Shown in pieces: positions 61,501-63,986 of a stretch of DNA of 64,000 nt. The notes beneath the pieces are model-generated. The model saw nothing but the letters and a program-made list of their open reading frames with translations. It was not told the origin of the DNA and ran no database searches. The stretch is from Sorex araneus. Lineage: Eukaryota; Chordata; Mammalia; Eulipotyphla; Soricidae. The stretch is taken from contig NC_073313.1 of NCBI RefSeq assembly GCF_027595985.1, positions 87,471,596-87,535,595 of the forward strand, in the 5' to 3' direction. A program made the translations under genes and the position numbers. Position 1 is the first letter of the stretch. Each line of letters begins with the position of its first letter.

Positions 61501-63986
61501 TACTCATGCTCTGGGCAAAGATCGTGATTTTATGGTATAGTGGAAATGCATTGCATTTGGTTTCAGAAAACTTGAATTTTAACACTGACTTCACCACTTT
61601 TTCATTTATGCAAGCCATTTAATTCTCTGAGCCTCAGTATCTTTATGTGTACTAGAAGGGTAATATTAATCAAGGGTTTCTTTGGTGACAATGTTGTGAG
61701 CATCTGTGGCTATGATAAGTATGAGTACAGTTTTTAAAACTGTGTAGTGTGGTAAATGTTGCGTGTCTTGAAGTTGCACACAGGCCATTTTACCCCTCGG
61801 CTTTCGGGTGCCTTCTCAGGCCAAAAAGAATCTCAGATTGTGTCCCTTTCCCTCCACAGCTGTAGTGGACACGAAGTGTCCACAGTGCTACCATCTTCTT
61901 ATTTTTTAATTCGAAAAACTTCCCCTTCTCTCTGTTGCTGCTGTTGTAATGACTGGGGTTGCACATTGCTTGCTTGTGGTGTTTGCACTTTGGTTGTGTT
62001 GCTTGCTGAGCTTTATAGATCTGGTTTTGGCACTATTATACTCCGCTGCTCTCCTCGCCAGGGTTGATATTTAGTTGTGCTCACATACACTCTGGTTGTA
62101 GTGCTTGCGAGGGGTTCCTGTGATTTTTTTTTGATGCATGTGTTCACTGTGGGTCACACTCCTTGCTACAGAGCTCTCGTATCTTTTTGAACTTCAGGGC
62201 TCACTGGGGATCACATGCTTCAGTTACAGTGCTTGCATACACTGTGTGTCTGAGAATTAGAAACTCTGTTGGAACACTGGGAGTCCCACACAGCAGAACT
62301 GCAAGTAGCTCATCCAGCACATGTGGGTGGCACTGGGGATCTAACTTATGGCCCCATTCTTGCAAGACAGGCACTTCCAGCAATTTAGCATTCCCTGCGG
62401 GCCCTGCGTCTCCTTATTCAAGCCAGACTGCAGCATAGGAAAAATGTTCACAGCAGACACACAGGCCCTTTTCATTTTAAGTCTTTTACTGCTACCCACA
62501 GTGCAGAAACAGTTACACTAAGATACTCAAATGTTGAAACGTTTCAGAACTTACACTGTTCCGCTGTATAGCTTTTTAAAAACTGCCTTTGAGAACAGTA
62601 ACTTAAAATTTTACCGGGCCTTTGCTGATTTATTCCTGAAAATGAGTTTCTCTTATGCATGAAGTATAGGCCATATACCAGGCCCAGACAGTATGATGCA
62701 AGATGCAAGATAATGCTTCTTCCTGGAAGATGAAAAGACTGAAGAGGAGCTCCTGTGCTTTCTGATCTCAAGTAGCCAGTTCGCAACTCTGACTTATTTC
62801 TCCTCATGAGAGATGGGATAATTTACTTAGTTAATGCTCCAATTCTTCTGACCTCTTGAAGTTTCAAATAATGCTTTCCCTTTAGAGTTTGGAATTTTGT
62901 GTGTTGATTTTAGATACAGATCTTTATATTTTTCCCCTTGGAAATGCCCTCGTTTCTCATTATGTTGTCCACACAATCACTCATTTATTCTCCTAATAAA
63001 AAAGGAGTTATCATTTAGGATTATTTACTTTTTTTTAGAATTACTTACTTTTAATTGTGTGCAAACTGTTGAAAAGTAAGCAACCTTTTTTTGATAGCTC
63101 TAAGAGTTGCCTTTCTTCAGCAAAGTTTCTACAGTTAAATTCAACTAGCTAAAATCTCAGGTTTGTGCTAAGTTCTTCGAAGCCTTGCTAAATTGACCTC
63201 CTCCCCTTTAGAGGGAAAGGGACTGACATTTGTCAAGCCACTACTATAATCTATAAGCTGGTAGCTTATAGCTCCTATTTAGTTCTCCCAGTAGCCCAGT
63301 AAAGTAATGGTATAATTTTGTCCAATTGAAACTGTGTCTCAAAGAGGTTAAATGCTTGCTAAGAAGCACGTATGCAATAAACGTAGTTATGATTCATGCC
63401 TAGGTTTTTGCTATTTCCTCTACACTTAATTGCCTCTCACTACACTGTGCTGCTTTTCTCTACTCCCCTTCCTAAGTGCTGTACCAAGTATGGCAGTGAG
63501 AATAACCTTCTCTGCCTGCAACTTTTGTCCATGTCATTCCATTCATTGAAAATATAACTCCCTCTATTTTGTGACTATAAAGGTAACGCATGATTGCCGA
63601 AGATAATATGTGATTGCCAAAGGAAATTTGGAAAGTAACTGTATTTCTAACCAGTCATTTTATATCTAGATAATGTATATAAGTAATAAGTATTTTTCTA
63701 TGTACACTAGATGTAAAGTATAGATACTTTTCCCCTCAACATTATGTCGTGCTTTTTCATATCAGTAAAAAAAACCTCATTGTGAACATAATTTTAGTGT
63801 AATATTTCATCCTATGGATGTATTATAAGTAATGAATCTCTTTATTGCTTGATCATTTAGTTTGTGTCCAATTTTTCACTATTATAACTAATGCTGAAGT
63901 AAAAGTCCTTCTACATAAATCTTTGTGCACATCTCTGATTATTTCCTTAGGATAAATTCTTAGAAGTGGAATTACTGGGTCAAAGG
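28434..63986 (+). CDS. SMARCA1: SMARCA1 (SNF2L) ISWI chromatin-remodelling ATPase, exons 1-13 (3' part outside window)
   Basis: SNF2L is the ATPase of NURF and CERF complexes. It slides nucleosomes in the nucleus using ATP and is prominent in neural and gonadal tissue. Thirteen exons with GT-AG borders join in one frame. Residues 1-84 form the acidic/Ala-rich N-terminus and the '[13 protein letters not shown]' segment. Residues 141-155 hold the AutoN autoinhibitory RHRR patch plus acidic stretch. RecA lobe 1 has Walker A GLGKT (Lys211), DEAH at 308-311 and LTGTP at 335-339. Lobe 2 begins with '[19 protein letters not shown]' (500-518). The rest of lobe 2 and the HAND-SANT-SLIDE region lie beyond the window. 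Wording such as '[19 protein letters not shown]' identifies SMARCA1 rather than SMARCA5. Exons are listed separately. Confidence 0.97.
30719..30803 (+). mobile_element. SINE type A fragment (head)
   Basis: Head 'gggctggagagatagtacat' is clear, but the body is lost after about 80 bases. Confidence 0.65.
30945..32217 (-). mobile_element. SINE type A split by the solo LTR
   Basis: The tail side (T-rich, 30945-30972) and the remaining body and head (32055-32217) belong to one old minus-strand SINE. The LTR between them duplicated the SINE bases ggggac. Confidence 0.7.
30973..32054 (-). mobile_element. Solo LTR of a class-II-like endogenous retrovirus, copy 2
   Basis: Reverse-complement counterpart of 11903-12980, 1082 bp, with the same terminal bases and the polyadenylation signal (TTTATT on the plus strand, 31151-31156). 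Perfect 6-bp repeats ggggac flank it (30967-30972 and 32055-32060). It lies in SMARCA1 intron 1 antisense to the gene. The two copies are very similar along their length with scattered substitutions. No internal genes are left. Confidence 0.9.
32270..32450 (-). mobile_element. SINE type A, old copy
   Basis: Minus-strand copy with an inserted G-rich patch, ending 'gctagctctctgggcccag'. Confidence 0.7.
32466..32625 (-). mobile_element. SINE type A
   Basis: Minus-strand copy with a small deletion in the body. The order of landmarks is intact. Confidence 0.75.
33333..33420 (+). mobile_element. L1 3' tail
   Basis: 'ttggaacattgtatgactga' and 'ctctcatggtgattcaatta' match the last ~85 bases of the plus-strand L1 at 24990-25075. 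Severely 5'-truncated. Confidence 0.85.
33472..33636 (-). mobile_element. SINE type A
   Basis: Minus-strand copy with a short deletion near the tail. Confidence 0.75.
33978..34190 (+). mobile_element. SINE type A with (TAAAA)n tail
   Basis: Diverged plus-strand copy whose A-rich tail has become an AAAAT pentamer repeat (34147-34187). Confidence 0.75.
34229..34402 (+). mobile_element. SINE type A, young copy
   Basis: Near-consensus, from 'ggggctggagtgatagcac' to 'aagaagcaaaaaaaatg'. The bases tgtggaattg appear on both sides (34219-34228 and 34402-34411), consistent with a target duplication. Confidence 0.9.
35270..35448 (-). mobile_element. SINE type A
   Basis: Minus-strand copy with a small internal repeat 'caatcaatc'. 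The head end is 'ctatatacccctggccc'. Confidence 0.8.
36167..36253 (+). CDS. SMARCA1: SMARCA1 exon 2, residues 56-84
   Basis: Acceptor ttctag, donor gtaaat. 87 nt, phase 0 on both sides. Encodes '[20 protein letters not shown]' then MDPEYEEKM. This links the disordered N-terminus to the region preceding the ATPase core. Confidence 0.95.
38165..38331 (+). CDS. SMARCA1: SMARCA1 exon 3, residues 85-140
   Basis: Acceptor aaatag, donor gtaagt. 167 nt, leaving two bases of codon 140. Encodes '[20 protein letters not shown]' and '[20 protein letters not shown]' with the basic PRIKKD stretch. The [11 protein letters not shown] wording separates SMARCA1 from its paralogue SMARCA5. Confidence 0.96.
38332..39700 (+). 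other. SMARCA1: SMARCA1 intron 3
   Basis: It contains an unclassified, faintly SINE-like G+C-richer block (38545-38960) and a plus-strand type A SINE (39208-39395). Confidence 0.6.
39208..39395 (+). mobile_element. SINE type A
   Basis: Plus-strand copy 'ggggccggagagacagtac' to 'ccaaaacaaaaacaaacaaa'. Confidence 0.85.
39701..39801 (+). CDS. SMARCA1: SMARCA1 exon 4, residues 140-174
   Basis: Acceptor ttttag, donor gtaagt. 101 nt. Encodes '[20 protein letters not shown]' and '[13 protein letters not shown]'. RHRR (142-145) is the AutoN patch, which in ISWI proteins mimics the histone H4 basic patch and holds the ATPase back until H4 displaces it. It is followed by the acidic EQEEDEE. Confidence 0.96.
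40099..40199 (+). CDS. SMARCA1: SMARCA1 exon 5, residues 174-207
   Basis: Acceptor ccttcag, donor gtaagg. 101 nt. Encodes '[20 protein letters not shown]' and '[13 protein letters not shown]'. This is the Q-motif/LRDYQ start of the SNF2 ATPase core and the first half of motif I. The intron before it is only 297 bases. Confidence 0.96.
40250..40391 (-). mobile_element. SINE type A, interrupted by a younger copy
   Basis: Minus-strand SINE whose head was split. Its bases tgctgtactg occur on both sides of the inserted copy (40382-40391 and 40572-40581). It starts about 50 bases after exon 5. Confidence 0.85.
40392..40571 (-). mobile_element. SINE type A, young, nested
   Basis: Poly-T of 18 bases, near-consensus body and head. 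It is inserted within the older SINE with a 10-bp target duplication. Confidence 0.92.
41380..41557 (-). mobile_element. SINE type A with 16-bp target duplication
   Basis: Young minus-strand copy. Perfect repeats caatcttgagactgta lie at 41364-41379 and 41565-41580. Confidence 0.93.
41640..42058 (-). mobile_element. SINE type A interrupted by a type B SINE
   Basis: Tail side 41640-41667 and body/head 41921-42058 belong to one minus-strand copy. The type B insert duplicated tcacacctggg. Confidence 0.85.
41668..41920 (+). mobile_element. SINE type B, complete, 11-bp target duplication
   Basis: The clearest type B copy: head 'gggctggaatgatagcatag', box-B-like 'gggtttggttcc', body with 'gcaagctaccaagagtatcc', then 'gccaaaaacagtaacaacaa' and the RTE-like end 'gcaaattgatgagcaacggg' followed by GACAGT repeats. 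Target repeats tcacacctggg at 41657-41667 and 41921-41931 show that head and tail moved as one unit. Confidence 0.95.
43117..43327 (-). mobile_element. SINE type B
   Basis: Minus-strand copy from 'cgatttgctcaagctggcac' (3' side) to 'ccctgccactgtgctatcg' (head). The extreme 3' repeats are missing. Confidence 0.88.
43607..43845. repeat. Unclassified degenerate repeat-like block
   Basis: It resembles 51478-51757 and 53893-54075 in composition and in ending with a SINE-head-like 'gacatgtgcttcagccc'. It could be an ancient relative of the type A SINE. Confidence 0.35.
43966..44112 (+). mobile_element. SINE type A, old copy
   Basis: 'gagcatatccaggagtcact' and 'gcatcactgagtgtggcctcc' mark a plus-strand copy with a degraded head. 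Confidence 0.6.
44540..44719 (+). CDS. SMARCA1: SMARCA1 exon 6, residues 208-267
   Basis: Acceptor aatgcag, donor gtaagt. 180 nt, phase 0. Starts with GLGKT, completing Walker A (catalytic Lys211), then '[20 protein letters not shown]', '[20 protein letters not shown]' (motif Ia) and '[15 protein letters not shown]'. Confidence 0.97.
44720..48157 (+). other. SMARCA1: SMARCA1 intron 6
   Basis: One old plus-strand type A SINE (45322-45462). The remaining ~2.7 kb (45463-48157) is AT-rich and, unusually for this window, has no element I can name. Confidence 0.6.
45322..45462 (+). mobile_element. SINE type A, old copy
   Basis: 'gaccaccaggagtgatctct' and 'cctgagcacagccagatatg' with an A-rich end are visible. 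Confidence 0.65.
48158..48313 (+). CDS. SMARCA1: SMARCA1 exon 7, residues 268-319
   Basis: Acceptor gcatcag, donor gtaaga. 156 nt. Encodes '[20 protein letters not shown]', '[20 protein letters not shown]' and '[12 protein letters not shown]'. DEAH (308-311) is Walker B, needed for ATP hydrolysis. Confidence 0.97.
48346..48521 (-). mobile_element. SINE type A
   Basis: Diverged minus-strand copy starting 33 bases after the exon 7 donor, ending 'gctatctcttcagctc'. Confidence 0.75.
48530..49160 (-). mobile_element. L1 3' end with 10-bp target duplication
   Basis: (TA)n at the 3' side (48540-48590), then antisense L1 3' UTR in standard order up to 'ggctgcatagtatttcattg'. Repeats tcaagcacag at 48520-48529 and 49161-49170. 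Confidence 0.88.
50134..50265 (+). CDS. SMARCA1: SMARCA1 exon 8, residues 320-363
   Basis: Acceptor ttctag, donor gtaagt. 132 nt. Encodes '[20 protein letters not shown]' and '[20 protein letters not shown]' then [13 protein letters not shown] is helicase motif III. Residue 332 is Cys where mammalian ISWI proteins I know have Arg ('TNRLLLTGTP'); TGC is one transition from CGC. Confidence 0.96.
50630..50790 (+). mobile_element. SINE type A, old copy, host of a younger insertion in its tail
   Basis: Plus-strand copy whose tail bases aagaaaatcacaaag were duplicated by the next SINE. Confidence 0.8.
50806..50985 (+). mobile_element. SINE type A, young, 15-bp target duplication
   Basis: Near-consensus copy (gacggagcgatagcacagtg ... 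cgacccgggttcgatccccg). Perfect repeats aagaaaatcacaaag at 50791-50805 and 50986-51000. A good reference copy for the type A head. Confidence 0.95.
51118..51262 (-). mobile_element. SINE type A, old partial copy
   Basis: Minus-strand copy lacking the tail, with head end 'ggactatctctccagtcc'. Confidence 0.75.
51478..51757. repeat. Unclassified degenerate repeat-like block
   Basis: Longer than a type A SINE and only its end ('ggacctgtgcataccagaca', 'gagctctctcctcagcc') is SINE-head-like. Resembles 43607-43845. Confidence 0.35.
51768..51940 (-). mobile_element. SINE type A, old copy
   Basis: Minus-strand copy with 'ctgactctgtgctcaggagtc' and head end 'ctgctatctctctggc'. Confidence 0.7.
52207..52416 (-). 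mobile_element. SINE type A, young, close to exon 9
   Basis: Near-consensus copy with a long TTTA tail. Repeats tcaagtttaattttt at 52192-52206 and 52417-52431. Its head end lies 55 bases upstream of exon 9, in the region normally holding branch point and pyrimidine tract. Confidence 0.93.
52472..52540 (+). CDS. SMARCA1: SMARCA1 exon 9, residues 364-386
   Basis: Acceptor cactcacag, donor gtaagt. 69 nt, phase 0. Encodes '[20 protein letters not shown]' then LHA. The pyrimidine tract before it is short ('tttttacccactcacag'). Confidence 0.95.
52970..53132 (-). mobile_element. SINE type A, old copy
   Basis: Minus-strand copy ending 'cctactatctctctggcccc'. Confidence 0.8.
54873..54962 (-). mobile_element. 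SINE type A fragment
   Basis: Only the head half is visible ('gaatgaacctgagattctgg' to 'gccatctccctggccc'). Confidence 0.5.
55845..55975 (-). mobile_element. SINE type A fragment
   Basis: Degraded minus-strand copy preceded by another uncertain fragment at 55675-55842. Confidence 0.5.
56583..56692 (+). CDS. SMARCA1: SMARCA1 exon 10, residues 387-423
   Basis: Acceptor cttttag, donor gtaaga. 110 nt, leaving two bases of Trp423. Encodes '[20 protein letters not shown]' and '[16 protein letters not shown]', the SNF2-specific 'PF(L)LRR' segment between the lobes. Confidence 0.97.
56758..56938 (+). mobile_element. SINE type A
   Basis: Plus-strand copy 'ggggccagaatgatagtat' to 'ccccaaacaaaaaggaaac', about 65 bases after exon 10. 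Confidence 0.88.
57035..57197 (-). mobile_element. SINE type A, old copy
   Basis: Minus-strand copy ending 'gacccatctctctagccc'. Confidence 0.7.
57405..57870 (-). mobile_element. Possible LTR remnant
   Basis: A block richer in G+C than its flanks carries an antisense polyadenylation-like 'gagtttattgaaaaac' at about 57525 and LTR-like composition. No clear terminal TG/CA pair or target duplication was found, so this is tentative. Confidence 0.3.
58320..58493 (-). mobile_element. SINE type A
   Basis: Well-preserved minus-strand copy, first of three consecutive ones. Confidence 0.88.
58503..58650 (-). mobile_element. SINE type A
   Basis: Second of three, with a shortened tail side and head end 'cctacctgctctgctc'. 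Confidence 0.78.
58676..58850 (-). mobile_element. SINE type A, old copy
   Basis: Third of three, more diverged, ending 'agctatctctctgggcccc'. Confidence 0.72.
59317..59543 (+). CDS. SMARCA1: SMARCA1 exon 11, residues 423-499
   Basis: Acceptor ttttag, donor gtgagt. 227 nt. Encodes '[20 protein letters not shown]', '[20 protein letters not shown]', '[20 protein letters not shown]' and '[15 protein letters not shown]'. '[11 protein letters not shown]' is the SNF2-family signature before lobe 2. Confidence 0.97.
59544..60605 (+). other. SMARCA1: SMARCA1 intron 11
   Basis: Holds a short ATTC tetramer run (59622-59642) and a type B SINE (59779-59968). 59970-60605 shows no nameable element. Confidence 0.6.
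59779..59968 (-). mobile_element. SINE type B, head-truncated
   Basis: Begins (3' end) 'cactgtcatcccattcattg', continues through the RTE-like block and the type B body, and stops at 'gaatcgaacccat', within box B, so the tRNA-like head is mostly missing. Confidence 0.85.
60606..60727 (+). CDS. SMARCA1: SMARCA1 exon 12, residues 499-539
   Basis: Acceptor ttttag, donor gtgagg. 122 nt, ending phase 0. Encodes '[20 protein letters not shown]' and '[20 protein letters not shown]'. This is motif IV of the second RecA lobe and the 'RLDGQT' segment. Without exon 13 the next exon joins directly after Glu539. Confidence 0.97.
60728..63950 (+). other. SMARCA1: SMARCA1 intron 12
   Basis: 60728-61750 is AT-rich with nothing I can name. 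61756-62440 is a more G+C-rich block with loosely repeated 'gtgcttgc'/'ttgctggt'-like phrases that I cannot classify. 62440-63560 is again plain AT-rich sequence. From about 63560 to the window end old antisense L1 sequence begins. Confidence 0.55.

Follow-up and report, generated by a model that had tools for sequence, protein, structure and literature searches.

Where did the 36-nucleotide (nt) cassette exon of SMARCA1 come from? It corresponds to human exon 13, the exon of the SNF2L+13 isoform, originally reported by Barak et al. in 2004. We considered this exon in a 64,000-nt window from Sorex araneus (contig NC_073313.1; the window is the whole stretch of DNA that was analysed), whose plus strand carries the 5' portion of SMARCA1. 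Taken as a whole, the best explanation, to which we assign a probability of about 0.88, is that the cassette exon is an exonised antisense L1 fragment giving SMARCA1 an off-switch set by splicing. Feature coordinates are collected in Table 1. Positions beyond 64,000 are window-equivalent positions in DNA fetched past the window end.

L1 homology of the exon and its splice sites

The antisense translation of the exon region matches, in the same register, residues ~1166-1212 of the human LINE-1 open reading frame 2 (ORF2) protein, ORF2p (best E 1.9e-9), and thus the cassette exon lies on the strand opposite the FDPAIPLLGIYP motif. LINE-1 ORF2 protein accounts for each of the four highest-ranking PDB sequences. 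With the exon left out, LINE-1 ORF2 protein is still the only PDB match of the translated antisense flank (four sequences, collinear, ~1188-1212), with a weak best E of 0.25. The sole Pfam match of the antisense piece was under its cut-off (E 0.057), and exact L1-like patterns were not found in viral and prokaryote collections.

The same fragment is dispersed in the genome of Sorex araneus (2.4 Gb, 65 contigs), where the segment 63860-64000 used as a query has at least 39 other places. All 39 copies were fetched with flanks (L010-L048), and every alignment overlaps the cassette exon. Upstream, five copies are still aligned at 63850 and one extends to 63800; downstream, five are aligned at 64040 and one extends to 64069, the homology passing the window end to approximately 64044. 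A flank-only query without the exon yields eight other places, all within the 39. ORF2p residues 1166-1210 match 28 of the 39 loci at E<=0.01, against none after base shuffling of the 39; at the looser E<=10 the counts are 36 and 13, respectively. Since the copies span both exon and flanks, the flank alone retrieves places, and 28 loci match ORF2p, the exon and its flanks form one interspersed L1 fragment. L1 homology is thus found on both sides of the exon, the flank-only protein match being weak, together with genome-wide dispersal, for which 39 places is a lower bound.

The initial annotation took the L1 origin of the exon from its similarity to the antisense strand of a young L1 in the same window. 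Realignment and shuffling confirmed the similarity: the exon and positions 19734-19769 align without gaps and share 30 of 36 bases. With both strands of 1-63700 considered, the runner-up among ungapped matches has 23, and the maximum score of 200 dinucleotide-shuffled exons was 25. The open frame 19690-20025 on the minus strand contains FDPAIPLLGIYPKE, and thus the matching segment is antisense ORF2. Chance similarity between exon and L1 is ruled out by the ORF2p match, the shuffles and the 39 other genomic places. The accompanying claim that the flanks continue the L1 stands on broader evidence. It is supported by the 39 genomic copies, which extend beyond the exon on one or both sides, but not by the young L1 alone, as 85 of 1000 shuffles reach the score of the upstream flank 63781-63950 against it. 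Nor is the young copy a close relative: it is a distant cousin with neither AG nor GT at the junctions, and close kinship is found instead with older copies dispersed in the genome.

The majority sequence of the 39 copies, derived with the SMARCA1 row excluded, reads TTTCCTTAG followed by GATAAATTCCTAGAAGTGGAATTACTGGGTCAAAGG and GTATGA, one synonymous base away from the SMARCA1 exon. The majority AG and GT are also seen in the 31- and 8-copy sets, again with the SMARCA1 row excluded, although single copies vary. The exon part is open in 16 copies, carries an indel in 12 and a stop in three, and is incomplete in eight. Both AG and GT are present in 13 copies, and both together with an open exon in 8/39. 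As the majority has AG, an exon encoding nearly the same 12 residues, and GT, the element supplied the splice sites and the peptide, which bears out the earlier proposal that both splice sites and the stop-free 12-codon insert came from L1. The origin from L1 therefore follows from the ORF2p match, the 39 dispersed places, the copies overlapping the exon, the flank-only places, and the majority computed without SMARCA1.

Distribution of the insert and its place in the protein

Three protein searches, with the best 120 cluster representatives taken from each (one of them standing for 828 sequences), gave 304 different proteins. The complete 12-residue insert occurs in 90 of these, which come from seven boreoeutherian orders. 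It is identical in 72 entries, and the Sorex araneus peptide coincides with that of bats, dogs and lorises. The other complete inserts are variants of 9, 3, 2 (DKFLEVEFLGQR, as in the gibbon entry), 2, 1 (DKFLGVELLGQR) and 1 (DKFLEVEFRGQR) entries, none of them more than two residues away from the 72-entry peptide; in one further entry, from a ground squirrel, the insert is incomplete. Named carriers include bats, carnivores, primates, rodents, rabbit, hedgehog and bison. Among rodents, hamsters, voles and lemming have the insert and the listed rat and jerboa entries do not, pointing to loss of the exon, or to its absence from the annotation, in part of the rodents. There is no named marsupial, monotreme, afrotherian or xenarthran in the protein lists, and the age claim is confined to Boreoeutheria. 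Judging from these protein sequences, the dating of the exon to at least the boreoeutherian ancestor holds. The antiquity proposed initially, from sharing with human, is upheld to that depth.

None of the examined entries from birds, frogs and fish has the insert. A conserved fish exon at the same junction was considered and rejected, as odd inserts occur in 8 of the 78 entries examined (P0092, P0094, P0095, P0119, P0232-P0234 and P0296; named species Sinocyclocheilus anshuiensis and Pygocentrus nattereri) and are mutually unlike. Five of the eight start with V, as intron read-through would, and they are probably read-through in gene models. A bird exon was rejected likewise, the odd residues being confined to one heron fragment. 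These few fish models and the heron fragment are what could speak for a short exon older than L1, resembling it by chance or through gene conversion. Given the disparity of the fish residues, and the homology to the other copies that passes through the exon into the flanks, such an exon is most improbable.

The insert is situated in ATPase lobe 2 between TPHEERE and (E/G)AIEAFN, before STRAGG. The exon is orthologous to the human SNF2L+13 exon: it has 36 nt, is in frame, occupies the same junction, and encodes the same or nearly the same peptide. The identity assumed in the initial annotation is borne out by the length, frame and catalytic-core place given for human (PMC6972770, PMC2266716). 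In an alignment to the solved SNF2h (6ne3), the insert stands against a single gap of 12 residues, which the program placed one residue off the exon boundary. The spacing from DGxT to STRAGG is 28 residues in 196 of the 304 proteins and 40 in 89. The following exon, at 64892, reads GAIEAFNAPNSSKF. It starts with GAIEAFN in Sorex araneus, hamster and vole entries, and with EAIEAFN in most other listed mammals.

In a predicted structure of a vole +13 protein (90 sequences), used for secondary structure near the insert only, the insert (313-324) is mainly coil, with one helix before it at 308-312 and another after it at 324-331. Among PDB entries this structure is matched best by ISWI and SNF2h chains, on which it superposes poorly over the whole chain. 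A first model from 15 sequences was discarded (mean predicted local distance difference test, pLDDT, 42.3). From this position the insert would be expected to disturb the ATPase core and leave the partner-binding parts untouched. The human SNF2L(ex13) isoform is described as ATPase-dead and kept in complexes (PMC6972770), and the isoform with the exon as remodelling-dead (PMC2266716). Inclusion of the exon in human mRNA was seen by reverse transcription polymerase chain reaction. The inactive human isoform is described as mainly non-neuronal and as predominant in lung, breast and kidney; the active form is found in brain and skeletal muscle, and is predominant in hepatocytes (PMC6972770).

Gene structure and other elements of the window

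The ten exons and the cassette exon, eleven in all, are each preceded by AG and followed by GT, and the joined open frame encodes 467 residues. The mapped exon chain starts at 38165 and is not continuous from the exon at 28434.

Table 1. SMARCA1 exons, splice sites and L1 segments in the Sorex araneus window
Feature	Position	Strand	Remarks
First SMARCA1 coding exon	28434-28598	+	ends ...GDKKKE; donor GTAAAT by eye
Ten consecutive SMARCA1 coding exons	38165-60727	+	in frame, AG/GT
First five of the ten	38165-38331, 39701-39801, 40099-40199, 44540-44719, 48158-48313	+	
Last five of the ten	50134-50265, 52472-52540, 56583-56692, 59317-59543, 60606-60727	+	
SMARCA1 exon directly 5' of the cassette exon	60606-60727	+	ends ...TPHEERE; phase 0
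3' splice site AG	63949-63950	+	AG in 31/38 other L1 copies with data
SMARCA1 cassette exon (human exon 13)	63951-63986	+	36 nt; phase 0; 12 residues
5' splice site GT (GTATGA)	63987-63988	+	GT in 15/32 other L1 copies with data
Old L1 fragment	63843-64000	-	C-terminal part of ORF2, antisense to SMARCA1
Second old antisense copy of the same L1 segment	43314-43385	-	earlier SMARCA1 intron; exon part minus 4 bases; AG changed to GG, GT kept
Young L1 copy, homologous ORF2 segment	19570-19772	-	GG at both junction positions

Adjoining the young antisense L1 are plus-strand reverse-transcriptase frames at 19947-20708 (Pfam RVT_1, E 2.8e-12 and 1.4e-14), which we take to resemble an RTE/BovB-type element. 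The open frames 16874-17311 (minus strand) and 20852-21256 (plus strand) share a similar stretch, SSDLHRRS...AGHVM.F...RWTRAVT.WIP, and have no Pfam match; perhaps they represent the terminal portion of such an element. Long simple-sequence tracts at 14077-14431 and 23049-23351 have multiple open frames on each strand.

A putative off-switch and comparable systems

Among 11 scored donors of SMARCA1, that of the cassette exon pairs most weakly with U1 (-5.1 kcal/mol, the others ranging from -5.4 to -10.2), which fits partial inclusion of the exon. Its vicinity contains two TCTCT motifs and no GCATG. At 36 nt, the exon falls outside the 3-27 nt of SRRM4-type neuronal microexons (size limit from PMC7935315), and its reported human inclusion in lung, breast and kidney likewise sets it apart from exons included in neurons. 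A 2023 Science Signaling title in the reference lists of PMC11876696 and PMC12143727, which does not name the exon, has the lncRNA MIR99AHG directing SMARCA1 alternative splicing by PTBP1, and PTBP1 on LINEs is described in PMC6108849. SMARCA1 was in none of the 20 matches listed, out of 435, by our literature search on splicing regulators.

The following scenario may be proposed. Firstly, prior to the divergence of the boreoeutherian orders, an old L1 would have inserted in antisense orientation into the intron that follows the TPHEERE exon of SMARCA1. Secondly, the strand opposite FDPAIPLLGIYP would already have contained a pyrimidine-rich tract ending in AG, a 36-nt stop-free segment in phase 0, and GT. 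With such ready-made signals, splice sites and peptide being those of the majority of the other copies, the segment could have been recognised as a cassette exon. Inclusion would place 12 residues between TPHEERE and (E/G)AIEAFN, in a segment of ATPase lobe 2 whose length is nearly fixed in relatives. The protein with the insert would keep its partners and lose remodelling, as reported for human. Finally, owing to the weak donor, inclusion may be incomplete and subject to regulation by tissue. The outcome would be SMARCA1 with a share of inactive ISWI set by splicing.

Several observations weigh against this explanation. The 39 copies were retrieved with SMARCA1 sequence as the query, so the set leans towards SMARCA1. 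In the eight flank-found copies AG is present in 4/8 and GT in 2/6 with data; both dinucleotides persist in the majority sequence of these eight, the exon of which shows a V-to-M and one silent change. The exon is not significantly closer to the majority than the flank: mismatches are 1/36 and 13/103 with 39 copies (p 0.11), 1/36 and 15/103 with 31 copies (p 0.07), and 2/36 and 8/103 with eight copies (p 1.0). The flank is also close to the majority (8/95) in a leave-one-out comparison that is query-biased and not relied on. The vole +13 model, made for the plus-exon form alone, has a mean pLDDT of 62.9 and values of 50 to 69 near the insert. Many database proteins are automatic predictions, and the human exon was called non-conserved in a comparison of human and mouse (PMC2266716). 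Finally, exon use in Sorex araneus is predicted from sequence.

This last point, the weakest donor and the listed rat and jerboa entries without the insert are also what a fossil would leave: the exon, although L1-derived, might be intact in Sorex araneus by descent and hardly spliced, the off-switch mattering in some lineages only. We consider this quite unlikely, as the Sorex araneus peptide equals that of bats, dogs and lorises, whereas none of the 19 other complete gap-free copies (16 open, three with a stop) encodes exactly the SMARCA1 peptide. Another possibility is splicing noise, i.e. an L1-derived exon that is included and yields an inactive isoform with no selected role. Annotation tends to report open exons only and would thereby favour intact ones, and the non-significant contrast between exon and flank agrees with this. 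However, missense changes pass through annotation unfiltered, and still 72 of the 90 complete inserts share one peptide, the remainder departing from it by at most two residues. This makes noise unlikely.

An exonised L1 acting as an off-switch would give an origin to a functionally described isoform earlier called non-conserved: a retroelement would have provided a complete switch for a chromatin-remodelling ATPase. The usual models, mouse and rat, may be without the exon. Tentatively, and with somewhat less than even confidence, one may make a general statement: the coding constraint on the conserved ORF2p C-terminal motif FDPAIPLLGIYPKE would by chance have written, in antisense, a phase-0 stop-free 36-nt exon and both splice sites into old mammalian L1s. 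Their antisense intronic copies would therefore have been candidate in-frame 12-residue inserts. SMARCA1 would then have kept one copy as a lasting ISWI off-switch, and the identical peptide may occur in further genes through independent copies. The corresponding prediction is that the same L1 segment may have produced similar inserts in other genes.

Among the matches listed, no statement of an L1 origin of the SMARCA1 exon was found in open full text on SMARCA1/SNF2L or L1 exonization, although human repeat annotation may well show it. The human SNF2L+13 or SNF2L(ex13) exon is in the same gene and at the same catalytic-core place, and is likewise a 36-bp in-frame exon (PMC2266716, PMC6972770); the cited passages give its function and expression but no origin, which here is antisense L1.

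Human L1 exons comprise 157 antisense and 62 sense cases, of which 149 are derived as whole exons from the element (PMC2394776). A hotspot of splice sites is located at the boundary of L1 ORF2 and the 3' untranslated region, and old LINEs give tissue-specific exons (PMC6108849). The SMARCA1 exon shares with these the antisense L1, the whole exon from the element, the boundary splice sites, and the tendency of old elements to give tissue-specific exons. It differs in that its product has a reported biochemical effect; SMARCA1 is absent from the main texts of both papers.

CSB-PGBD3 (PMC2268245) similarly is an intronic transposon in a gene of a SWI/SNF-family remodeller that yields a conserved alternative exon. 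However, it is a DNA transposon providing a 3' terminal exon and a transposase fusion, reported to be conserved since the human-marmoset split, whereas SMARCA1 has an internal 12-residue LINE insert. In the cryptic exon of COL4A5 (PMC5441408), an old antisense L1ME gives the 3' splice site, as in SMARCA1. That exon arose with a disease deletion, its AG is absent from the L1ME consensus, and it introduces a stop, whereas in SMARCA1 AG is the majority state and the exon is open. Transposon exonisation is a known kind of event, to which the SMARCA1 exon adds a case in a consequential place.

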